Shown: positions 8,043 to 20,209 of the stretch, one piece after another
Layout: every line of letters begins with the position of its first letter
Position numbering within the stretch: position 1 is the first letter of the stretch
Assembly (NCBI RefSeq): GCF_003362725.1
Contig: NZ_QKTV01000001.1
Coordinates: 744,001 to 808,000, forward strand
Length of the DNA stretch: 64,000 bases
From: Winogradskyella aurantiaca
GTDB lineage: Bacteria; Bacteroidota; Bacteroidia; Flavobacteriales; Flavobacteriaceae
Reading direction: 5' to 3'
Program-made: the position numbers and the translations under genes
Notes under the pieces: generated by a model
The model's database searches: none
What the model saw: only the letters and a program-made list of their open reading frames with translations
What the model was told of the DNA's origin: nothing

Positions 8043-8612
8043 TTATAAACGCCAAACAGCGTGCAGCCCATATTGATAGTGGTTATTCTCAAAACCACTG
8101 GAGTCATTATTAAGGGCAAATTTACCTACAACCTGAAGTCGAAGTCCGAAGGTGTTGTTTTCGTTCAGCCAAAAAAGAGCTGCTCCCCCAAGATTAAATG
8201 ATAGGTTGGAGCCGTCAATCCTAAAAAATCCAGCTCCCCCAATGGCAGAGAAATCTATTTTATCATAACCACGGCGAAAGATTAATCTTCCAAAGTTATA
8301 CCTAACATTGGTGTCAAATGAGATGTATGTAAAATCACTTGTTGCTGGAACAGGGTCAAAACGTTCTCCCTGGTTGATGCCATTAAGGTTTAAAGCAAAT
8401 TCAAAATTAAAGTCGCGCGCAAATTGACGTTCTGCAGAAACGGTGAACGGATTTTTAAACATCCAGTCTCCGGGACTTTCAAATGGATTTAATGTTCCTA
8501 ATGAATTGACAGCGTTAAATCCACCTGCAATAAACCAATCATCGAAAACTGCTCGCTGACTATTACCTACAAATCCTGTTATAAGTAGGATGATGATCGT
8601 AAATTTTTTCAT
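8043..8612 (-). CDS. Small outer-membrane beta-barrel protein
   Basis: A 189-residue secreted protein. The N-terminus from ATG 8612 (MKKFTIIILLITGFVGNSQ) is a Sec signal peptide. The rest consists of alternating, aromatic-rich beta strands (FNFEFALNLNGI, YISFDTNVRYNFG, NTFGLRLQVVGKFAL) and ends in HAVWRL, the pattern of an eight-stranded OmpA/OmpX-type barrel. The longer open frame to 8654 would place 14 extra residues before the signal peptide, so 8612 is preferred. It has no identifiable partner gene, and its function is unknown. Confidence 0.8.
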   Translation of the reverse strand: MKKFTIIILLITGFVGNSQRAVFDDWFIAGGFNAVNSLGTLNPFESPGDWMFKNPFTVSAERQFARDFNFEFALNLNGINQGERFDPVPATSDFTYISFDTNVRYNFGRLIFRRGYDKIDFSAIGGAGFFRIDGSNLSFNLGGAALFWLNENNTFGLRLQVVGKFALNNDSSGFENNHYQYGLHAVWRL

Positions 8613-8642
8613 AGATAAATTTGTTTGCCCAAAAGACAAAAC

Positions 8643-8650
8643 CAAAAATA
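8643..8650 (-). promoter_or_regulatory. Candidate -7 element for the barrel protein gene
   Basis: Read on the minus strand this is TATTTTTG, a perfect TAnnTTTG match, 31 bases upstream of the ATG at 8612. The base triplet at -33 is GGT rather than TTG, so the call is moderate. Confidence 0.45.
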
Positions 8651-8671
8651 GCATATTCTGTTAAAAATAAC

Positions 8672-9697
8672 CTAATTAAAAAATGGAAATATCTTATTTT
8701 TAAAGACATGCCTTCTATACGAGCTATTGTTTAAGAATATGGTAATTCTTTCTCTAATATTGAAAAAAAACCATTTTATTTTCAACAATAAACCGAATAT
8801 TCTGGGATGTATAAATCTCAGTTTAATCCATTTCAAGTGCTTAGAGTAAAAATTGTACTCTTTTAAATAGTCGAAGTCTTTAAAAAGGTAAGCGGCTGTT
8901 GTTAAGAAAAAATGAAATAAACGCTCTTTTATAATGCTCGTTATTAAACTACTGTTGTTTGGTAGTCCATAAAAAATGATATCATAGATCTGCTTCATGT
9001 GCAGACTGTAGTAATAGCGTCCGTGGCTATTAATTTGTGATGAGAGTATGGTGCTAATAATTAAGTGATCCTTTGAAGGTAATTGAAACCCTTCAAATTC
9101 TTCTTTCTGGTTAAAAATGTCCTTAGTGGACAAGATATCCTGTTTTCCAGGATTAATTATGGAGGAATGTAATTCTACTGCGGCAATTTCATCCGGGCAT
9201 ATCATCCTAGGAGCATGTCTGAAGTTTTTAACTTCATAGTTGAATGTGGCACCTGTTTGGTAACCATTGTGCTTCATTAATTCTACAGCTTCATCTAATT
9301 GATCAGGTTTGATGAGTATATCAATATCACCAATCATTCTTATCCCTTTATCCAAGTTTGGAAAGAGTGTTATAAATGCTGCCCCTTTTAATAACACATA
9401 GTTAATGTTATTGTCCTTAAATAGTTTTGCTATGGAGTTTAATTGTGCAGAAATGCTCGTATTTCGATTGGAATTGATATCATGAATCTCAGTTAAGAAT
9501 GACGTTAAGTCCTCTGGGAGAAAATCGATTAATTCTTTTTTTCGGAGGGACCAGAATATAGATGGTAACAGTAATTGCTCACTTGAGATTTTAACCAAGT
9601 CCTCCCAAGAAGAAAAATCGATGAGTTCATTGGAGAGAAGTACGTTATTATAAGTAGGACTCAGTATTCTTCCAATAAGAACATAAATATCTTTCAT
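8672..9697 (-). CDS. NTP_transf_5-type nucleotidyltransferase
   Basis: A 341-residue cytoplasmic protein of the uncharacterised nucleotidyltransferase family (PF14907 type). The signature is NYVLLKGAA (about residues 99-107), followed by the metal-binding GDIDILI (about 123-129), with a mostly helical C-terminal half. Members of this family sit beside HPr-kinase-like proteins in some lasso-peptide clusters, where they are thought to modify a phosphorylated peptide or its product; that is family knowledge, not shown here. It starts one base after the kinase-like gene ends and is the last gene of the three-gene minus-strand unit that begins with a 54-residue peptide. The substrate is unknown. 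Confidence 0.8.
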   Translation of the reverse strand: MKDIYVLIGRILSPTYNNVLLSNELIDFSSWEDLVKISSEQLLLPSIFWSLRKKELIDFLPEDLTSFLTEIHDINSNRNTSISAQLNSIAKLFKDNNINYVLLKGAAFITLFPNLDKGIRMIGDIDILIKPDQLDEAVELMKHNGYQTGATFNYEVKNFRHAPRMICPDEIAAVELHSSIINPGKQDILSTKDIFNQKEEFEGFQLPSKDHLIISTILSSQINSHGRYYYSLHMKQIYDIIFYGLPNNSSLITSIIKERLFHFFLTTAAYLFKDFDYLKEYNFYSKHLKWIKLRFIHPRIFGLLLKIKWFFFNIRERITIFLNNSSYRRHVFKNKIFPFFN

Positions 9698-9698
9698 T

Positions 9699-10832
9699 TC
9701 ATCTATCGGATTCAGTTAATTGTTCTAGGATAGGAATTACCTCTTTAAAATTACTGTAATTTAAGTTGAAGAAACGTAATTTATCTAACCAATTAAAAAA
9801 CACATGTGCATGCTCAGCATTAGGTGAAATCCAAGATTCCCTAATCACTTCTTGGATAACCTCTTCCAGTCCAACTTCAGTGAATTCTGTTTCTATGTTA
9901 GGTTGATAATTTACTTTAATAAGGTATTTGCAATCGGCGCCGCTTTTAACAAAGTCTTTGTGCATGGGAATGTACGTGATAGCACCCTTACTTTTAGACC
10001 TTAATCCTTTTGTATAGCTGCTCTCATTAGGCCAGTATTTAGAAACAAGCGAAAGAGCAGAGGCTTTTACCGAAACGGCTCCAGGATTATGATATAACCT
10101 AGAATCATCTGCTCTTAGTGGTACCGTATCATCTGCTATGAGCTCAAAACCATGACTAACTAGCAAACTTACAAGTGTACTTTTCCCACTTCCCGAAGAC
10201 CCTGTGAATAATATGCCCAGTTTATGTTTAGAAACGGCGGAAGCATGTAGTAAACCAACCCAATCTTGATCTGTGGTTTCATGAAGTAGGTTTATTACTT
10301 GCATGATTAATTTGCCTTGAATTTTATGGTAGTCTGAAGTTTGGCATTGGATAGTCAGCGTATCATTAAGGCTCATAATAAGCTTTTTTTCAGCCAGTTT
10401 TATACGCACATGTTCATCTGGCTGGGATAAGTCGTTATTTATGTGCAAATGGGCAATTAACGGGTGGAATAACTGTTGAATACGCTGATCGTTGTATTGA
10501 ATTTCTAATACTTTTGACCCAATTTGATAGTATTTAGAATTGGCCAAGGGTTCAATTTCAATTAAATCAGGGGATTTGGTATCAGAATCGGTTAAGGTGT
10601 GACAGGTGGTCAGGTAGTCCTCAATTCTTTGGTATTGGCTTTTTAAGAAGGTAGTGGAAAAACCTGTTTCAACCTGCAATGATTTTATGAAAGACGACTG
10701 GGATTTGGAAGTCAGATATACATTCAGGATTTCCTGAAAATCAGTGTCAATTATAGAATAGGTGTTGGTTTTAGCAAACCATAATAAAAAATGGGATCCA
10801 AAAGAATTTACAATATCTGGACCATGAATCAT
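9699..10832 (-). CDS. HPr-kinase-like protein with PqqD-like N-terminus
   Basis: A 377-residue protein in two parts. Residues 1-90 resemble a PqqD/RRE-like winged-helix fold (inference from pattern and context, no strict motif). Residues 190-370 form a P-loop domain of the HPr-kinase type, with the loop GSSGSGKST at 211-219, a HASAV segment just before it and an ELIADDTVPL strand after it. HPr-like kinases in lasso-peptide clusters such as that of paeninodin phosphorylate a serine of the precursor. Here the upstream neighbour, 14 bases away, is a 54-residue peptide gene with Ser/Thr in its C-terminal part. No PTS protein HPr gene is nearby, so phosphorylation of a small peptide is the more likely role. 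Confidence 0.75.
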   Translation of the reverse strand: MIHGPDIVNSFGSHFLLWFAKTNTYSIIDTDFQEILNVYLTSKSQSSFIKSLQVETGFSTTFLKSQYQRIEDYLTTCHTLTDSDTKSPDLIEIEPLANSKYYQIGSKVLEIQYNDQRIQQLFHPLIAHLHINNDLSQPDEHVRIKLAEKKLIMSLNDTLTIQCQTSDYHKIQGKLIMQVINLLHETTDQDWVGLLHASAVSKHKLGILFTGSSGSGKSTLVSLLVSHGFELIADDTVPLRADDSRLYHNPGAVSVKASALSLVSKYWPNESSYTKGLRSKSKGAITYIPMHKDFVKSGADCKYLIKVNYQPNIETEFTEVGLEEVIQEVIRESWISPNAEHAHVFFNWLDKLRFFNLNYSNFKEVIPILEQLTESDR

Positions 10833-10846
10833 TTTAAACTAATAAA

Positions 10847-11011
10847 CTAACCTCCTACTCCTAAAGGATCTCCTCCTGGATCTGGTGGAGATGTTACCTG
10901 TGCTTTTAAAGGGTTCAATATGGTATAGGTTCCAACCGCTGTAATGGCTGCATATTTACCCATTTTTTTGATGGCTTCCTTACGTGTTATGCCTTTTTTC
11001 TGATTTTTCAT
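10847..11011 (-). CDS. 54-residue putative precursor peptide, Gly/Pro-rich C-terminus
   Basis: This short gene has not been recognised by size-filtered ORF calling, but it is a complete frame from ATG (11009-11011) to TAG (10847-10849). The N-terminal half is basic and starts MKNQKKGITRKEAIKKMGKY, then a hydrophobic stretch AAITAVGTYTILNP, then LKAQVTSPPDPGGDP and a final LGVGG. A leader-like helix followed by a short Pro/Gly/Asp-rich tail is what a modified-peptide (RiPP) precursor looks like. The TRKEAIKK plus hydrophobic segment ending in KAQ also resembles a Tat or Sec export signal. A perfect -7 element lies 18 bases upstream, and the kinase-like gene follows after 14 bases, so the three genes look like one transcription unit. 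The function is inferred only. Confidence 0.7.
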   Translation of the reverse strand: MKNQKKGITRKEAIKKMGKYAAITAVGTYTILNPLKAQVTSPPDPGGDPLGVGG

Positions 11012-11028: not shown

Positions 11029-11036
11029 CAAAAATA
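11029..11036 (-). promoter_or_regulatory. Candidate -7 element for the peptide-kinase-nucleotidyltransferase unit
   Basis: On the minus strand this reads TATTTTTG, a perfect TAnnTTTG, with the peptide ATG 18 bases downstream. The -33 region, about 19 bases further up, reads TGT, a poor match to TTG. Its placement supports the short gene being real and transcribed as the first gene of the unit. Confidence 0.5.
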
Positions 11037-11187: not shown

Positions 11188-14100
11188 TTATTTCAATATT
11201 ATTTTAACCGTGTGTTCTGATATACCGTTGTTCAGTTTTACTAAATAGATACCGCTATTTAGCTGTGTACCATTGATGGTTTGCCTAGTCTTACTAGTAT
11301 TCAAGTCTCGCTTTATAACAAGGCGTCCTTGCAAATCATAGACTAAAGCTTTAGTATCTAATTCCAGCTGACCATCAACATAAATTTGCTTGCTATTATC
11401 CCCGTATATATGAAGATTCTTCAGGTCTCTTTCCGGGGTGCTTAAGGAATTTGATCCAAAATTCAGATAGAATCTACCCGTACCTGATAAAGCACTATTG
11501 CTTGTAATAACGTAGTCACTTGAACCTAACCTGGTAAACGTGTTAGTTTCTGCATCCTCTAAAATAACTTCAATGTCTGATGGTAAGTTTGAATAGTCTG
11601 CAGCAAATCTAATTTGCTGTCCCTGGCCCGCATGAACCCCTAGTGGTATTCTAATATTTTCTATGTGAATAGAATTTAGCGTTTGAACCATCATAGGGAA
11701 TCCAGCATTTTCTTCAATGAGATGTGAATAAAGGTCAAAGTTGCCTATACTATTGCCAAACGTTGTGCCGTCATAGCCGGGGTCCAATCCTAAGGAACCA
11801 TTTTCATGGAAATAGATGTCAGTGATCTTAACATTGCTGCCAGAACTTAGGCTCAATTTAAAATTTAGATTCTCAAGATTTGATTCGGTAAAACCAAGAA
11901 TAAAATCGTCGTCCCCAGTTAAGGTTCTCATGCTACTTGTAAAATCAATAGTACCACTAGAACCAGGTGTTCCAGGGGCGGCTACAAAAAATGCTTGACC
12001 TGGCGCAAGATTTATTGTTGGGTTGGAGATAAAATTGATAATGGTGAAATTGCCTGCGGTTCCCGCTCCAGGGAACGTACCGTTATTATAACCATAAATA
12101 CTAACAGCAAATGGTTCAAGAGCAGCTGCATTGGCCGCAAGAAACGCTTGCGAATCCAAATAACTGGGGTAGGGGTTACCCAATAGGTTCCATTGAGACC
12201 CGCCCACGGGTGTGGATATAGGGACTCCCGTTAAGTCCCCTGTAAATATATCACCGGAAAAGGTTAGGGTCTCACCGGTGGTAGTGGCTACTCTATAACC
12301 GACTCCTCTACTAAGGGCATCCGTTCCGCTAGTAGCAAAATTCTCGTAACTATTGGTTGTATTGTTAAACGGAGCAAAGGCATAAACAGATCCATTGGTA
12401 GCTAGCTTATCTGCATTGGTTGTAGGACTACCAAGACCAATATACTCATCAAAAGTCTGCCCATTATCTGGCATTAACGGAATGGACACGAGATCGTTAC
12501 CTCCACTGCTACCTGATCCAACGATGTTTACGAATCTGTTGTAATTAACCGTGCCGTTGGCCCCGACTAATGCAGGTAGAATACTTGAATAGGCAGATGA
12601 GGATGAATTAAGCGTCAGTGTTCCGTTATTGGTAAGGGTACCATTGGTGCGGAGTGTCTGCCCAGGATCGATTTCAACAGAAGAACCAGGTTCAATCGTA
12701 AAGTCATTTACTTCTATGGGTGCATCTACGGTATAGGTGCCGCTATTAACTATAACATCTTCTGTCCCAGTACCAGAGGTGGGAGGGCTTGGGAACCAAG
12801 TACCATCCCTGTAAATAAGTCCATCGAATTCTGAGACAACTCTAAAATTATCAAAGGCCGAATACCCTGAAACATCAGCATTTCGAGACTCAATCCAAAA
12901 GCCCACATTAGTGGTGCCGTCAGGTAAGTCAATAACAACTCTTCCCTCAGCATCAGGAATACCGTTAGCACCATCAAACAGGTTAACGACAGTTTGTTGC
13001 GTCCCATTGATTCTTACTCTATACCTCACATCATCTCTAGTGGCTGTATAGCCTTTCACTTGCCAATCAAAGACTATCTTGATATTTGAGAAGCCAGTCA
13101 CATCTACATTATCGAATGTTAATCTGGCCCATCCAGTTGATCCATTATCGTTTTCTCCAAGTATAGTACCTGAGAAAAACGGCCAGTCAATTGGAGATGC
13201 CGAAGCTATGTCGATTGGACCATAAAAGCCACTAACTCCCCATCCATTGTCATAAAAGGGACGATTGTAAGTCACATTCCATTCTGGACCACTGCCATCA
13301 AAATCTTGAATCCATAGAGCTAAATAGGGATTTAAAACATCAAAGAATGCACTTGGTGTATTGATAAAGCCAGTAGCAAAAGCAGTGATTGTAAACCCTG
13401 TTCCTTTTTCAGAAAAAGCCAAATTAGAGAAGGTGGCAACCCCGTTTGTTGCACTGGTCGATGTGGTAGCTGACGGATCAAATGTTCCTGAAGTAAAGAA
13501 TGAAACTGTATCTGTATAATCTAAATCAAGATTACTGTTACTATCCACGGCATATATTTCTACAGCCGGTACCATTGGTTCAAACTGGTTGACGTCTGTG
13601 GCATTTTGATTGTAAATAAAACTTGTTGCGTCTACCTCAAGCCTATTAGCATCTCCTGTAATGGAAGTTTGCGCTCCACCAGCATCACCAAACTCAAAAA
13701 GAGAGCTTCCTGAAGATGGCGTTATTGCCGAATTCACAGAGAGTTGAATTTGTTCGTTATCCGTGACAGAGGATGTAAAAGTGGCGTATACGTCAAAACT
13801 CTTAGTGCCGTTATCGGGTGCAGAGATTCCAGAGCCACCATTTAGATTTGTGAATTCTGTTAAGTCCGTTACACTTGTCACTTCGCCCATTGATACTCCA
13901 CCGTTAAATATGGCTAGTGCGGCGATAAAGCTGGGATTAGTCACTGTAAATGTAATGTCTGATAAAATCGTTGGGTCACTATCGGTATCGGAACCAGCAG
14001 CACCTCCATCGCGAATGGTAAAGGAGCCGATTTGCACGGCATTAGCGGTTGTTAATCCAGATGTAGCATCAAAAGAAATATAATCAATATTATCCGTTTC

Positions 14101-14769
14101 ACCCCCATTGGTAACAATGTCTGAGTCCGTACTATTAGTTGAACTTGTTACAGCTGTACCAACAATTCGCGCTCCAGGTGAAGCAATACCCAAATCTGCC
14201 CATCCAGAGCCAGCTCCATTGGCAATTCGGAACCATCCCCCATTGGTATTTGAGTTCCAGGCATATAATCTGAAGGTTATGGTACCTCCCTCTGTTGGAT
14301 TAATCAAAGGTAAGCTTGGTGTATTCCCCGAATCAAAAAAGAAATTGGTAGCCGAAGAAGGGGTGACCTCCTCATTTGTAAAAGGAATCCCCGCAGTAGC
14401 AAAGCCATCAAAGCTATAAAAGATTTGCCATGCTTGAGGTCCATTATTATTTCGTCGAACTCTAATGTCCAGATCACTAATGGTAATTGTATAAGTTGGT
14501 AATGCAGTAATGGACCATTGGATATACTCACCTGCTGCTTCTGCTGATGCTGCATCAGTTGCGTTCCAACTGTTAGAGGTATGGTTTCCACCGCTGGCTT
14601 GACCTATTCCTGAACCTCTTGTAAACCCTACAGAACTAACACCTGCTGTATTTCCTGTATCTGTAGATCCCGTTGTTATATTGGATCTATCTATTACTAC
14701 TAAATTGGTTTGGGCACTTACAAAGGCACTAAACATAATAAGTGCAGCCAACAAGAGTTTTTTTATCAT
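11188..14769 (-). CDS. Giant T9SS-secreted surface protein, copy 1
   Basis: A 1193-residue exported protein. A Sec signal peptide (MIKKLLLAALIMFSAFVSAQ) is followed by a beta-rich domain of about 190 residues (RNNNGPQAWQIFYSFDGF, GGTITFRLYAWN), Ig-like segments with DNIDYISFDATSGL, a carbohydrate-binding-like beta-sandwich (about 480-650: IQDFDGSGPEW, GWARLTFDNVDVTG), a Thr/Asn-rich repeat (RTNGTLTNNGTLTLNSSS) and a globular C-terminal part. The last 75 residues (ALVYDLQGRLVIKRDL, LNSGIYLVKLNNG, HTVKIILK) are a type A T9SS sorting domain, which routes the protein through the outer membrane and is then cleaved. No enzyme motif is seen; adhesin or glycan-binding roles are guesses. It is a tandem paralogue of the next minus-strand gene upstream. 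Confidence 0.88.
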   Translation of the reverse strand: MIKKLLLAALIMFSAFVSAQTNLVVIDRSNITTGSTDTGNTAGVSSVGFTRGSGIGQASGGNHTSNSWNATDAASAEAAGEYIQWSITALPTYTITISDLDIRVRRNNNGPQAWQIFYSFDGFATAGIPFTNEEVTPSSATNFFFDSGNTPSLPLINPTEGGTITFRLYAWNSNTNGGWFRIANGAGSGWADLGIASPGARIVGTAVTSSTNSTDSDIVTNGGETDNIDYISFDATSGLTTANAVQIGSFTIRDGGAAGSDTDSDPTILSDITFTVTNPSFIAALAIFNGGVSMGEVTSVTDLTEFTNLNGGSGISAPDNGTKSFDVYATFTSSVTDNEQIQLSVNSAITPSSGSSLFEFGDAGGAQTSITGDANRLEVDATSFIYNQNATDVNQFEPMVPAVEIYAVDSNSNLDLDYTDTVSFFTSGTFDPSATTSTSATNGVATFSNLAFSEKGTGFTITAFATGFINTPSAFFDVLNPYLALWIQDFDGSGPEWNVTYNRPFYDNGWGVSGFYGPIDIASASPIDWPFFSGTILGENDNGSTGWARLTFDNVDVTGFSNIKIVFDWQVKGYTATRDDVRYRVRINGTQQTVVNLFDGANGIPDAEGRVVIDLPDGTTNVGFWIESRNADVSGYSAFDNFRVVSEFDGLIYRDGTWFPSPPTSGTGTEDVIVNSGTYTVDAPIEVNDFTIEPGSSVEIDPGQTLRTNGTLTNNGTLTLNSSSSAYSSILPALVGANGTVNYNRFVNIVGSGSSGGNDLVSIPLMPDNGQTFDEYIGLGSPTTNADKLATNGSVYAFAPFNNTTNSYENFATSGTDALSRGVGYRVATTTGETLTFSGDIFTGDLTGVPISTPVGGSQWNLLGNPYPSYLDSQAFLAANAAALEPFAVSIYGYNNGTFPGAGTAGNFTIINFISNPTINLAPGQAFFVAAPGTPGSSGTIDFTSSMRTLTGDDDFILGFTESNLENLNFKLSLSSGSNVKITDIYFHENGSLGLDPGYDGTTFGNSIGNFDLYSHLIEENAGFPMMVQTLNSIHIENIRIPLGVHAGQGQQIRFAADYSNLPSDIEVILEDAETNTFTRLGSSDYVITSNSALSGTGRFYLNFGSNSLSTPERDLKNLHIYGDNSKQIYVDGQLELDTKALVYDLQGRLVIKRDLNTSKTRQTINGTQLNSGIYLVKLNNGISEHTVKIILK

Positions 14770-15177: not shown

Positions 15178-18100
15178 TTATTTCAAAATAATTTTTACCG
15201 AATGTTCAGAGATTCCATTGTCAATTTTTACCAAGTAAATTCCACTATCTAACTGAGAAGCGTCAATAGTTTGGCGTGTGTTGTTAATTACTAATTCTCG
15301 CTGAATAACCAGTCTGCCTTGCAAATCATATACTAATGCTTTCGTAGCAGATTCTAATTGACCATCAATATGGATTAGTTTGTCATAGTCTCCATATACC
15401 TGTAGATTAAGTAAGTCTCGTTCTGTAGTGCTCAACGCATTGGATCCAAAATTCAAATAGAACCTACCAGTTCCAGATACACTATTGTTCAGTGTAAGGA
15501 CATAGTCTCCTGCATTGAGCCTTATAAAGGAATTGTTGAAGGTATCTTCCAAGATCACCTCGATATCCGATGGCAAATTCGAATAAGAGGATTTAAAGGT
15601 CAATTGCTGGCCCTGAGAGGCATGAACGCCCAAAGGTATTCGGACATTTTCTATGTGAATCGAGTTGAGCGTCTGCACCATCATGGGCAGTCCTGCATTT
15701 TCTTCAACAAGATGTGTGTAGAGGTCGAAGTTGCCAATGCTGTTGCCAAACGTTGCGGAATCATAACCTGGATCCAGGCCTAGAGAGCCATTTTCATGGA
15801 AATATATATCTGTAATTCTAACATTACTGCTGGATCTCAGACTTAGTTTAAAGTTTGGATTCTCATTGTTAGATTCAGTAAAACCAAGAATAAAGTCATC
15901 ATCCCCTGTGACGGTTCTCATACCACTGGTAAAATCAATAGTACCACTGGAACCTGGTATTCCTGGGGAGGCTACAAAAAATGCCTGACCAGGAGCTAGG
16001 TTTATCGAAGGGTTGGAAACACGATTGATAATTGTAAAATTTCCTATGGTTCCCGCTCCAGGGAAGGTGCCATTATTATAGCCGTAGATACTGGCAGCGC
16101 TGGGCTCCAGGGCCGCTTCATTGGCGTCAAGAAATGCTTGCGAGTCCAAATAGCTGGGGTAAGGGTTGCCCATCAGGTTCCATTGCGACCCACCAGCAGG
16201 TGTGGAAATTGGTATTCCAATAATGTCACCTGTAAAGATATCGCCAGAAAAAGTTAAAGTCTCGCCGGTGGTAGTGGCCATTCTATAGCCAATTCCTCTG
16301 CTAAGGGCATCGGTTCCGGTTGTAGCAAAATTGACGTAACTGTTGTTAGTGTTATTAAAAGGTCCAAAGACATAAACAGAACCATTGGTTGCTAGCTTGT
16401 CTGCATTAGTTGTTGGACTGCCTAGGCTAAGTAACTCATCAAAAGTCTGACCGCTATCAGGCATCAATGGAATGGACACGAGGTCGTTGCCACCACTGCC
16501 ACCGGATCCTGCAATGTTTACGTATCTATTGTAGTTAACTGTGCCGTTTACGGCAACTGCCGCAGGTACAATACTTGAGTAGGCAGATGACGATGAATTA
16601 AGTGTCAGTGTACCGTTATTAGTGAGGGAACTATTGGTGCGGAGTGTCTGTCCGGGGTCGATTTCAACAAAAGAGCCTGGGTCCACAGTCAAGTTGTTTA
16701 CTTCTACGGGGGCATCCACAGTATAGGTTCCGCTATTTATGATAGCATCAAGAGCACCGGTTTCAGAAGTTGGTGCACTAGGGAACCAGGTATTATTTCT
16801 ATAGATGAGTCCATCAAATTCAGAGACCACCCTAAAATTATCAAGGGCTGAAAACCCTGAAGTATCATTATTACGAGTCTCAATCCAAAAGCCTACATTG
16901 GTGGTACCATCAGGTATGTCAATAACAACTCTTCCCTCAGCATCTGGAATGCCATTAGCACCATCAAACAGATTGACAACTGTTTGTTGGGTATTATTAA
17001 TTTTCACCCTATATCTCACATCATCTGAAGTGGCAGTATAGCCCTTCACCTGCCAATCAAAAACTATTTTTAAGTTATCAAATCCAGTAACATCTACATC
17101 GTTAAATGTGAGTCTTGCCCATCCATTGGTTCCGTTATCATTTTCGCCAAGAATAGTTCCCGAGAAAAATGGCCAATCAATTGGTGATGCTTGGGATGCA
17201 TCAATAAGACCATAATAGCCACTGCCCCATCCATTATCATAGAAGGGGAGATTATTGGAGTAATTCCACACAGGTCCACTGCCGTCAAAATCCTGTATAG
17301 CAAGCACCAGATAAGGGTCAAAGACATCAAAAGAGGCACTTGGTGTATTAAGAATTCCTGTTGCAAATGCAGAAATCGTAAAATTGGTTCCTTTCTCCTC
17401 AAATCTCAAATCAGAAAACGTGGCAATCCCGTTTACAGCATTAATGGAAGTTATGGCTGATGGATCAAATGTTCCATTAGTAGATAAAGAAACCGTATCT
17501 GAATAGTCCACATCTAAATTGAAATTGGTATCCTCCGCTAATATTTCAACGGCAGGAACCATGGGTTCAAATTGATTGACATCCGTGGTATTTTGACTGT
17601 ATACGAAGACGCTGGCGACAACCTCAATTTTGTTGTTATCACCGGCTACAGAGGTAGAAGCACCTCCGGCATTTGAAAATTCGAATAATGAACTACCTGA
17701 AGTAGGATTGGTTGCAGAATTTATTGTCAGTTGAAATTGGCCATTATCTTCCACGGCTGAGGTAAACGTAGCATAGACTTCAAAGGTATTCTCTCCGTCA
17801 TCTGGAGCTTCGATCCCTGTTGGGCTGTTTAAATTAGAAAACGTTGTTATATCAGTAATGGTAGTTACTTCACTTACCAAACTTCCATCATCATAAATGG
17901 CAATGGCGGCAATATAACCTGGATTGGTAATGCTAAAGGAAATGTCAGTAAGGCCAGTGGGTAGCGCATCAGAATCCGGACTAGTAGCACCGCCATCTCT
18001 TATGGTGAATTCCCCTATTTGTAGCGCATTGGCGGGCGTCAATCCTGAGGTATCGTCGTAGTCCATGTAGTTAATATTCTCCTCGTATGTAAACGTTGGA

Positions 18101-18744
18101 CTTTCTATAATATCCGATTCAAAACTGTTTGATGATGTTGAAGTGGCCTCACCTATGAGATTGGCACAGGCGTCGGTAATACCGAGTCCATTAAGGCTTG
18201 GCCAATAATTAATTCTAAACTGACCATTTTCATTGTTCGCGTTCCAGGCAAAAAGTCTAAAAGTGATGGTTCCTCCTTCAGGGGATGTAATATTTAGGCC
18301 AGAGTAAGTATCATTTACAAAGGTAGTTGCGGGCAATAATTTTTCAGCTGATAAAGCTACTCCTGGTGTTGCAAAGCCATCAAGACTATATAGAATCTGG
18401 TAGGATCCAGGACCATTGCTACTTCTGTATACTCTTATGTTTAATTCGTCTAAATCGACTGTGAACGTTGGTAAAGCAGATATAGACCATTCAATGTAAT
18501 CATTTGAAGCTTCTGCCCCAGAAAGGTCAGTGGTATTCCAGCCATTGGACGTATGATTAGGGTCTGATCCGCTTTTTTGTATTCCAGCTCCTCTGGTGAG
18601 TCCTTGAGAACTAACTCCAGTGGCATTACCTGTTGGTGATGATCCGGATGATACATTTTGCCTAGAAATTACAACAAGCTCTGATTGCGAAAAAGACCAA
18701 AAGCTAATTAACAAAAAACATACAAATAAGTAATATGACTTCAT
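15178..18744 (-). CDS. Giant T9SS-secreted surface protein, copy 2
   Basis: A 1188-residue paralogue of the neighbouring 1193-residue protein with the same domain order throughout: signal peptide (MKSYYLFVCFLLISFWSFSQ), the N-terminal beta domain, Ig-like region, carbohydrate-binding-like sandwich, Asn/Thr/Ser-rich repeat, and a T9SS type A sorting domain ending HSVKIILK. The two proteins align end to end with few gaps; the C-terminal halves are clearly more alike than the first 250 residues, which also differ in length. The gene lies upstream of copy 1 in the same direction and diverges from the polysaccharide locus. No catalytic motif is visible. It probably arose by tandem duplication, with the N-terminal region diversifying. 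Confidence 0.88.
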   Translation of the reverse strand: MKSYYLFVCFLLISFWSFSQSELVVISRQNVSSGSSPTGNATGVSSQGLTRGAGIQKSGSDPNHTSNGWNTTDLSGAEASNDYIEWSISALPTFTVDLDELNIRVYRSSNGPGSYQILYSLDGFATPGVALSAEKLLPATTFVNDTYSGLNITSPEGGTITFRLFAWNANNENGQFRINYWPSLNGLGITDACANLIGEATSTSSNSFESDIIESPTFTYEENINYMDYDDTSGLTPANALQIGEFTIRDGGATSPDSDALPTGLTDISFSITNPGYIAAIAIYDDGSLVSEVTTITDITTFSNLNSPTGIEAPDDGENTFEVYATFTSAVEDNGQFQLTINSATNPTSGSSLFEFSNAGGASTSVAGDNNKIEVVASVFVYSQNTTDVNQFEPMVPAVEILAEDTNFNLDVDYSDTVSLSTNGTFDPSAITSINAVNGIATFSDLRFEEKGTNFTISAFATGILNTPSASFDVFDPYLVLAIQDFDGSGPVWNYSNNLPFYDNGWGSGYYGLIDASQASPIDWPFFSGTILGENDNGTNGWARLTFNDVDVTGFDNLKIVFDWQVKGYTATSDDVRYRVKINNTQQTVVNLFDGANGIPDAEGRVVIDIPDGTTNVGFWIETRNNDTSGFSALDNFRVVSEFDGLIYRNNTWFPSAPTSETGALDAIINSGTYTVDAPVEVNNLTVDPGSFVEIDPGQTLRTNSSLTNNGTLTLNSSSSAYSSIVPAAVAVNGTVNYNRYVNIAGSGGSGGNDLVSIPLMPDSGQTFDELLSLGSPTTNADKLATNGSVYVFGPFNNTNNSYVNFATTGTDALSRGIGYRMATTTGETLTFSGDIFTGDIIGIPISTPAGGSQWNLMGNPYPSYLDSQAFLDANEAALEPSAASIYGYNNGTFPGAGTIGNFTIINRVSNPSINLAPGQAFFVASPGIPGSSGTIDFTSGMRTVTGDDDFILGFTESNNENPNFKLSLRSSSNVRITDIYFHENGSLGLDPGYDSATFGNSIGNFDLYTHLVEENAGLPMMVQTLNSIHIENVRIPLGVHASQGQQLTFKSSYSNLPSDIEVILEDTFNNSFIRLNAGDYVLTLNNSVSGTGRFYLNFGSNALSTTERDLLNLQVYGDYDKLIHIDGQLESATKALVYDLQGRLVIQRELVINNTRQTIDASQLDSGIYLVKIDNGISEHSVKIILK

Positions 18745-19087: not shown

Positions 19088-20209
19088 ATGATTATGAAAA
19101 AAGTTGCTTTAATTACCGGAATTACCGGTCAGGATGGAGCTTATTTAGCAGAATTTTTACTCAAGAAAGGATACGAAGTTCACGGTGTGAAAAGACGGTC
19201 GTCTTTATTCAATACAGACCGGATTGATCATTTGTATCAGGACCCCCATGAAAAGGATACGCGGTTTTTTCTGCATTACGGGGACTTAACTGATAGTACC
19301 AATCTCATTCGTTTGATCCAAACAATAAAACCCATTGAGATCTACAACCTGGCAGCAATGAGTCATGTACGTGTCTCGTTTGAAATTCCAGAATACACTG
19401 GTAATACAGATGGATTAGGGACGTTAAGAATACTTGAAGCGGTTAGGATGTTGGGCATGGAATCAACCACGCGTATTTATCAAGCCTCAACCTCTGAGCT
19501 TTATGGTAAGGTTCAGGAGGTGCCACAATCTGAGACCACACCATTTTATCCAAGATCGCCCTATGCGGTGGCTAAAATGTACGCCTATTGGATTACTGTT
19601 AATTATCGAGAGGCTTATAATATGTATGCTTGTAATGGGATTTTGTTTAACCATGAATCGCCAATTCGTGGAGAAACATTTGTAACCAGGAAAATCACCA
19701 GAGCAGTATCCAGAATTGCTTTAGGTCAGCAAAACAAAATGTACCTAGGGAATTTGGATGCTAAACGAGATTGGGGTCATGCCAAGGATTATGTGAGAAT
19801 GATGTGGATGATATTACAAGCGGATGAACCTGAAGATTGGGTGATTGCCACGGGCAAGACAACTTCGGTAAGAGATTTTGTGAGAATGAGTTTTACGTAC
19901 GTTGGTGTAGAATTAGAATTTAAAGGGTCCGGAAAGGAGGAAAAAGCATATGTGAAGTCGTGTGGTAATCCGGATTATCAATTGGAAATTGGTAAAGAGG
20001 TGTTATCTGTAGATCCTAAATATTACAGACCAACTGAGGTGGATTTATTAATTGGGGATCCTTCTAAAGCGAAAAACAAATTAGGATGGATTCCGGAATA
20101 CGAACTCAAAGACCTTGTTGACGATATGATGCAAAGTGATTTAAAGCTAATGAAGCGAGATCAGTATTTAAAAGAAGGTGGATTTGAAACGCTTAATTAT
20201 TTTGAGTGA
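19088..20209 (+). CDS. gmd: GDP-mannose 4,6-dehydratase
   Basis: Converts GDP-D-mannose to GDP-4-keto-6-deoxy-mannose, the first step to GDP-L-fucose, in the cytoplasm. This 373-residue extended short-chain dehydrogenase shows the nucleotide-binding [15 protein letters not shown] (residues 9-23), the HGVKRRSS segment specific to Gmd, the catalytic STSELYGK and the [10 protein letters not shown] Tyr-Lys pair. Length is standard. ATG 19088 or the in-frame ATG at 19094 are both possible. Its stop overlaps the fcl start, as expected for consecutive steps of one pathway, and it is the first gene after the locus promoter. Confidence 0.97.

Follow-up and report, generated by a model that had tools for sequence, protein, structure and literature searches.

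The window (the whole 64,000-nucleotide stretch analysed) carries on its minus strand a real gene for a 54-residue peptide. We consider it probable that this gene encodes a linear RiPP precursor, whose S41 would be phosphorylated by a kinase with a fused RiPP recognition element (RRE), whose phosphate would be elaborated by an NTP_transf_5 enzyme, and whose Sec-like leader would be cut during export. The results point to phosphorylated peptides of a type not described before, which may act together with large proteins of the cell surface. The features are listed below, all on the minus strand, with the evidence for each.

8043–8654 (−): secreted or outer-membrane-type protein (type assigned by eye), about 200 aa, optional neighbour; relative in 70 of 79 loci
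8672–9697 (−): NTP_transf_5 nucleotidyltransferase, 341 aa; PF14907 at 98 bits, GDIDILI site, co-occurrence
9699–10832 (−): HprK-like kinase, 377 aa, carrying a fused RRE-like domain; family matches, homologue alignment, predicted structure
10593–10832 (−): predicted N-terminal RRE-like domain, kinase residues 1–80; AlphaFold2, Foldseek, VIA-align
10847–11011 (−): candidate precursor peptide gene, 54 aa; translation, conserved family, purifying selection
10850–10900 (−): predicted core QVTSPPDPGGDPLGVGG; variable region, valid if the cut falls between A37 and Q38
10889–10891 (−): codon of S41, the invariant Ser and predicted phosphorylation site; 115 of 115 peptides with the motif, 127 of 129 copies
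10901–11011 (−): leader, residues 1–37 (RK-x-A…KYAALTA-x-GT…LNP-x-x-A); column conservation and Sec-like composition, end point inferred
11029–11036 (−): −7 promoter element TATTTTTG; sequence, position conserved in homologues
11188–14769 (−): type IX secretion (T9SS) cargo, 1193 aa; TIGR04183 and PF18962, upstream of the peptide gene with a gap of 176 nt
15178–18744 (−): second, paralogous T9SS cargo, 1188 aa

A conserved peptide gene with an invariant serine

The complete small gene that the earlier note had described was recovered exactly as a 54-aa frame. As that note had stated, its tail has no hydroxyl residues other than T40 and S41, and 14 bases (10833–10846) separate its stop codon from the ATG of the kinase gene; the −7 element lies 17 bases before its own ATG. 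Short ORFs are plentiful in the region, with 50 of at least 40 aa across 5–18 kb, and comparison with relatives must therefore decide whether the frame is real. The peptide itself has no Pfam or NCBIfam match at E values up to 1. Clear homologues with 53–75% identity were obtained in a search of 99 genomes (its own and relatives). With a 10-row profile and a threshold of 0.01, the peptide was detected in 41 of 397 family genomes and 27 of 237 genera, counting two weak matches (G190 and G393). Among pattern-matching stretches in named genome contigs, 223 of 259 encode a relative; the best 80 of these 223 were retained and correspond to 79 loci, mostly from Winogradskyella and Psychroserpens and also from Gelidibacter, Subsaxibacter, Hanstruepera and others. 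Some stretches from the 397-genome set (e.g. L134, L136 and L151) are the same places as named-contig loci. A phylum-wide sample gave matches in 5 of 345 genomes, all of them from the family of the window, taken to be Flavobacteriaceae, to which Winogradskyella belongs and whose share of the sample is not given. The genome of the window holds a single peptide gene, and several genomes carry multiple copies, e.g. six in G358.

The peptide frame is under purifying selection. Over a 32-codon block (106 copies, 1635 pairs) pN/pS was 0.158 for the peptide frame; the two shifted frames gave 1.9 and 4.5. The earlier note had held that the lack of a small frame beside kinase homologues, or of codon bias within it, would speak against the gene; a conserved frame was found next to the kinase, and selection of this kind was seen in the peptide frame only. 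Conservation in relatives together with the in-frame pN/pS excludes a chance ORF. The TANNTTTG pattern of the promoter element is common in the window (79 matches against 86 expected). Where the gap to the upstream ORF is at least 60 nt (90 peptide genes), 68 genes have it 5–60 nt ahead of the start codon, against a chance level of 0.054 per site as determined by shuffling; of the 26 genes with a shorter gap none has it.

The first approximately 37 residues of the peptide are strongly conserved and the tail is variable. We aligned 116 distinct peptides, omitting entries that scored below 60, the frameshifted L129, and L103 and L021, which are recuts of the L007 gene. R10, A13, T24, L32 and P34 are invariant in this alignment, and K11, G18, K19, Y20, A22, A25, G27 and T28 nearly so. 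The leader block (32 aa including the Ser) is on average 81.7% identical between loci, compared with 41.7% for their kinases, and leader identity exceeds kinase identity in all 2485 pairs from 71 loci. The earlier note had asked whether the leader is conserved while the tail varies; this is the case, with 66 distinct tails among 102 loci. A ribosomal gene with a conserved leader and a variable core is what is expected of a RiPP.

Among the distinct peptides that have the motif, all 115 carry the Ser corresponding to S41, three residues past position 38 (Q38 in the window), next to residues that vary on either side; the remaining peptide of the alignment, L177, has a stop before the Ser and thus lacks the motif. 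Across 129 distinct leader blocks matching a set pattern, which leaves out damaged copies lacking it, the Ser is kept in 127, the exceptions being L177, with its stop, and G321, where Tyr stands in its place and no kinase was detected. All six Ser codons, TCN and AGY, are used at this position, no Thr was found there in the peptides examined, and 75 of the 115 peptides have no further hydroxyl residue after it.

The commonest tail, PPDPGGNPFD, recurs unchanged in 30 of 102 loci, and the ending GVGG occurs, among the copies listed, only in the window's own genome. A leader–core layout, variable tails and multiple copies in some genomes would also suit an antimicrobial or toxic small peptide, i.e. 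a bacteriocin-like RiPP directed against competitors. We give this explanation very little weight: an identical tail in so many loci is unlike an arms race, and inspection by eye of the neighbour families present in at least 5 of the 79 loci revealed neither an immunity gene nor a dedicated exporter. As a side observation, the precursors at L132 (10169–10459) and L133 (9172–9468) have long tails of a different type (PGK repeats, Ser/Thr-rich), a hint that one leader may carry diverse cores.

The composition of the peptide resembles that of a Sec signal. In 104 copies, the part before the hydrophobic stretch has a net charge of +2 to +8 (median +5), and the 11-residue hydrophobic stretch has a hydropathy of at least 1.35 (median 2.1). 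What follows A-Q is acidic, with a median charge of −2, and contains Cys in a single copy. The earlier note had offered Tat or Sec export as an alternative; the Sec-type shape was seen, and classic Tat export was rejected since a twin arginine occurs in none of the 116 distinct peptides (the invariant Arg is followed by K in 110, by N in five and by T in one). All 115 peptides with the motif have A, S or T at position 37; at position 38, Q occurs in 99 of them, H in 15 and A in one. A cut between A37 and Q38 would fit the Bacteroidetes Q-rule of signal peptidase I (described in PMC5837995), though residue −3 is then often Lys. An alternative A-x-A cut would lie two residues on, after residue 39, where the window's copy has Val at −1. 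From the sequence we infer an ambiguous signal peptidase site, at A37/Q38 or after residue 39.

The kinase, its N-terminal domain and the nucleotidyltransferase

The gene downstream of the peptide has a weak HprK signature (PF07475, 34.5 bits). Its best NCBIfam match is TIGR04352 (HprK-related kinase A) at 70.4 bits, which is far under the curated cut-off of 200. H196, the P-loop including K217, D234, D235, S254 and K256 are invariant in 36 aligned homologues. AlphaFold2 predicted the whole kinase with a pLDDT of 92 from 36 sequences, and residues 84–377 match PEPCK (Z 12–13) and, in Foldseek, HprK folds. The start codon is ATG in the window, and in many homologues, as read, likely TTG close behind the peptide stop.

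The N-terminal domain, which is barely probed in the VIA-align list of the whole kinase, was predicted and searched alone. AlphaFold2 gave three strands and three helices with a pLDDT of 89.7. TbiB1 with leader peptide takes Foldseek ranks 1–4 with probability 1.00 and E values of 0.011–0.044; across ranks 1–6 E ranges from 0.011 to 0.084, never below 0.001. In VIA-align, 6jx3, a structure of lasso B1 (taken to be FusB1) together with leader peptide, scored Z 8.8 and TbiB1 8.4 and 8.3, with 78 residues aligned for each at an rmsd of 2.5–2.6. Lower scores were obtained for a sactipeptide enzyme, presumably CteB (6.9 and 6.8), PqqD (5.9) and TigE (5.8), and also for a spliceosome chain (5.7). 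Winged-helix shapes are common. A PDB sequence search with the domain returned no relative (best E 0.11). A PqqD-family model matched one of 34 kinase members (WgkC, E 0.0032), and Pfam PqqD is absent among the matches listed for the 34, which covered 25 of 28 families. As a search for a discrete RRE in the window's genome, the Pfam PqqD model gave a best score of 13.4 bits against a cut-off of 23.4, a test of limited power because the fused domain also goes undetected by it. As sequence models do not confirm it, the RRE assignment rests on predicted structure, by which the domain is predicted to fold like RREs. The main text of the RRE-Finder paper (PMC7470986) mentions neither HPr, kinase nor Bacteroid.

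The NTP_transf_5 gene has an intact GDIDILI site, in which D124 and D126 are invariant in 16 sequences. The usual order in the 79 loci is T9SS cargo, peptide, kinase, NTP_transf_5, and this order recurs in other genera. Asking, as the earlier note had proposed, whether peptide homologues sit beside HprK-like and NTP_transf_5 genes, we found a kinase homologue in 72 of 79 loci, the nucleotidyltransferase in 70 and neither in seven. One of these seven (L082) stops at a contig edge; for the others (L038, L041, L053, L058, L067 and L068) the assemblies hold another kinase locus (L029, L047, L070 and L060). In L040 and L099 the kinase is present and the nucleotidyltransferase missing.

The nucleotidyltransferase gene is followed in the window by the gene at 8043–8654 (−), which has no Pfam match; this neighbour was not seen beside the nucleotidyltransferase gene in several distant genera. 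A different gene of about 300 aa follows the kinase in G054 and G362 (L184 1270–2178 and L188 7046–8994), with NTP_transf_5 elsewhere in the genome, and in G362 there is also a gene of about 346 aa after the kinase, whose product, judged by eye, resembles a sugar kinase.

Across the 397 genomes, the peptide was found in 41, the kinase in 35, the nucleotidyltransferase in 32 and all three in 31. The thresholds of our choice were 1e-12 for the kinase (weakest genome 5.9e-61) and 1e-15 for the nucleotidyltransferase (weakest 2.9e-66). Peptide and kinase occur together in 34 genomes, the peptide only in seven, the kinase only in one and neither in 355, with a kinase profile built only from kinases of peptide loci and an ascertainment that is one-sided in this respect. 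The kinase and the nucleotidyltransferase occur together in 32 genomes, the kinase only in three, the nucleotidyltransferase only in none and neither in 362. Fisher tests gave p-values from 3e-36 to 4e-44 for the co-occurrence of the three genes.

The co-occurrence holds also where the genes are unlinked. G358 carries its six peptides on contigs C1, C3 and C8 and the kinase and nucleotidyltransferase on C4; in G161 the peptides lie about 370 and 490 kb from the kinase–nucleotidyltransferase pair; in the draft assemblies of G054 and G187 all three are on different contigs; and in G362 the nucleotidyltransferase is about 78 kb away from the kinase. The peptide-only genomes are G174, G313, G321, G333, G353 and the weak G190 and G393, where a looser search returned P-loop kinase scraps in three and the nucleotidyltransferase in none. 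Several of their peptides are damaged: G353 is frameshifted, G333 has three stops in the match, and in G321 the Ser is replaced as described above. G174 and G313 have an intact peptide and no detected kinase, in assemblies that are 84 and 82% complete. The kinase occurs without the nucleotidyltransferase in G105, G189 and G409 (82–90% complete), and the peptide of G189 is the copy with the stop before the Ser. In G047, kinase and nucleotidyltransferase were found and no peptide, in an 82% complete assembly where the kinase lies right at the start of its contig.

The signal-peptide-like composition of the 104 copies would also fit an ordinary Sec-exported small peptide with unrelated neighbours. 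This explanation is highly improbable in our view, given the invariant Ser, the genome-wide co-occurrence with the kinase and the nucleotidyltransferase, in places unlinked, and a leader identity of 82% between loci with 42% kinase identity. The precursor layout proposed in the earlier note, a leader followed by a core, is supported by the conserved leader, the variable tail, the conserved kinase, the predicted RRE domain and the invariant Ser. The RRE-like domain, the invariance of S41 and the link to T9SS cargo genes go beyond what that note had described.

Pairing with type IX secretion cargo genes and a possible link to polysaccharide loci

We defined the upstream gene as the longest same-strand ORF of at least 80 aa ending within 1 kb of the peptide gene. 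The 126 entries represent 124 distinct peptide genes (three entries are one G012 gene), of which five lack upstream sequence, three have no such ORF and 116 were tested; for 105 of the 116 the upstream gene ends within 400 nt. TIGR04183 is carried by 108 of the 116 upstream genes and PF18962 by 107, and the pairing extends to scattered extra peptide copies. Among the eight without TIGR04183, single members match FolD-type, SRP-type and Lcl_C families. The upstream ORFs vary greatly in length and, as far as read, have mainly the sorting domain in common. The window's genome has 43 TIGR04183 matches in 3.1 Mb, 35 of them over the cut-off, from which we estimate that chance adjacency of peptide and cargo would amount to a few per cent at most. 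No description of T9SS cargo paired with a small peptide gene was found in the literature searched. This constant pairing suggests a cell-surface role of the peptide.

The same evidence could mean that the peptide is an accessory of the upstream cargo (a chaperone, anchor or assembly factor), with the kinase and the nucleotidyltransferase acting on the cargo or its glycan and not on the peptide. The 108 of 116 genes and the low chance of adjacency favour this explanation, as does G358, in which every one of the six peptides is preceded by a gene like the window's cargo, far from the kinase. We nevertheless regard it as unlikely. It leaves unexplained the RRE-like domain on the kinase and the invariant Ser within the peptide, the leader is conserved beyond the needs of a signal peptide, and the Ser is lost in a genome without kinase (G321). 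Moreover, eight upstream genes lack TIGR04183 and three more peptide genes have no upstream ORF.

Under the phosphorylated-precursor reading, a broader arrangement is possible, if on the doubtful side: one pair of RRE-kinase and nucleotidyltransferase may serve several precursors behind T9SS cargos, and the resulting phospho- or phosphoglyco-peptide may work with the cargo at the surface, for example as the partner of the cargo, as an anchor or as a link to surface polysaccharide. If true, RiPP machinery would build part of the cell surface and not an antibiotic.

A long cluster of polysaccharide genes at 19088–57425 (+) diverges from the T9SS–peptide–kinase unit. By eye it includes GDP-mannose dehydratase, fucose synthase, UDP-glucose dehydrogenase, an ABC export pair, glycosyltransferases and Wza- and Wzc-like genes. 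At least one gene like those of this cluster was present in 8 of 22 kinase loci versus 1 of 14 peptide-only loci, counted in stretches of 8.5–19 kb. A general link to polysaccharide loci is thus partly supported.

Proposed mechanism and comparison with known phosphorylated peptides

In the mechanism we propose, the kinase would hold the conserved N-terminal leader with its fused RRE-like domain, and the HprK-like domain would phosphorylate S41 in the cytoplasm, perhaps several times. The NTP_transf_5 enzyme would then probably add a sugar or nucleotide to the phosphate, by analogy with the systems below. The leader would serve as a Sec signal (net positive N-region, 11-residue hydrophobic stretch, LNP, A-Q or A-x-A) that ordinary signal peptidase I may cut during export, and the released product would be an acidic Pro/Gly/Asp-rich peptide of about 15–17 residues.

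Among the closest known systems are the linear polyphosphorylated peptides (LPPs) of Bacillota (PMC13381572, Nat Commun 2026). Both systems have an HprK-like kinase and an uncharacterised NTP transferase, combine a conserved leader with a variable C-terminus, and in some cases lie at polysaccharide loci; a macrolactam cyclase was seen in neither, here as judged from the conserved neighbours. In both a Ser lies just past the leader: S3 of the core AQSNWK in LPP and A-Q-x-x-S here. LppK places several phosphates on S3 and none on the variants S3T and S3Y (PMC13381572), in agreement with our failure to find Thr at the Ser position. The two systems also differ. The RRE is discrete there and an RRE-like domain is fused to the kinase here; the leader motif YxxPxVLxHQxIxFETxxS described there is absent from our alignment columns; an SpI-like peptidase and an MsbA-like exporter are present there; and LPP comes from Bacillota, as opposed to Bacteroidota with T9SS cargo genes here. 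LPPs and paeninodins are restricted to Bacillota according to PMC13381572. In our data, neither an SpI-like peptidase nor an MsbA-like exporter was recognised by eye among neighbour families of at least 5 of the 79 loci, and no small same-strand gene that could be a discrete RRE was seen among such families (ORFs of at least 60 aa). Because a discrete RRE, the peptidase, the exporter and the leader motif were not found, the family is not filed as LPP. As far as tested, it would work like LPP but without several of its defining parts; by analogy, the fused domain may replace the discrete RRE, and a general signal peptidase may replace LppS.

The kinases of the lasso peptides paeninodin and pseudomycoidin (PadeK, ThcoK and PsmK) are likewise of HprK type and carry a His-Lys-Asp-Asp motif, as reported in PMC9266682, which H196, K217, D234 and D235 resemble by residue type and order only. 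The lasso nucleotidyltransferase PsmN is a partner of the kinase, as is the case here, a comparison made by role and not by Pfam family. Hexose addition to phosphorylated Ser has been reported for PsmN (PMC9266682), and the partner nucleotidyltransferase of lasso kinases is reported to add hexoses to the phosphate (PMC8498205). Deletion of LppN, however, made no change in a heterologous host (PMC13381572), and the second modification thus lacks support even in LPP. The Ser is C-terminal in the lasso peptides and internal here. A lasso peptide was rejected, as the best score for the lasso protease PF13471 in the window's genome, 14.2 bits, stays below the cut-off of 26; no macrolactam cyclase was recognised among neighbour families of at least 5 of the 79 loci.

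We found no description of a Bacteroidota peptide–kinase system of this kind in a literature search that covered few subscription papers. If our reading is right, the novelty would lie in the fusion of an RRE to an HprK-like kinase that acts on a Sec-type leader, and in the pairing of the peptide with T9SS cargo genes. There would be a Bacteroidota branch of phosphorylated RiPPs in which the recognition element is built into the kinase. The reading also makes a concrete single-residue prediction, phosphorylation of the Ser, in cultured bacteria. The link to T9SS cargo would offer a handle on the purpose of phosphorylated peptides, a question left open in PMC13381572.

Two further sequences were observed in genomes of the set. 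In G086 (L009 1432–1692, reverse strand) a frame of 86 residues, counted from the stop codon, contains a similar Pro/Asp/Gly stretch, PSLPPDPGGENLPVGGEAPIDG, with a different N-terminus and a C-terminal hydrophobic stretch; we take it to resemble PID-CTERM proteins. In G161 (L145 3080–5003) at least four near-identical frames of 119 aa lie at a spacing of 391 bases where consecutive, possibly tRNA-linked GIY-YIG-like units.
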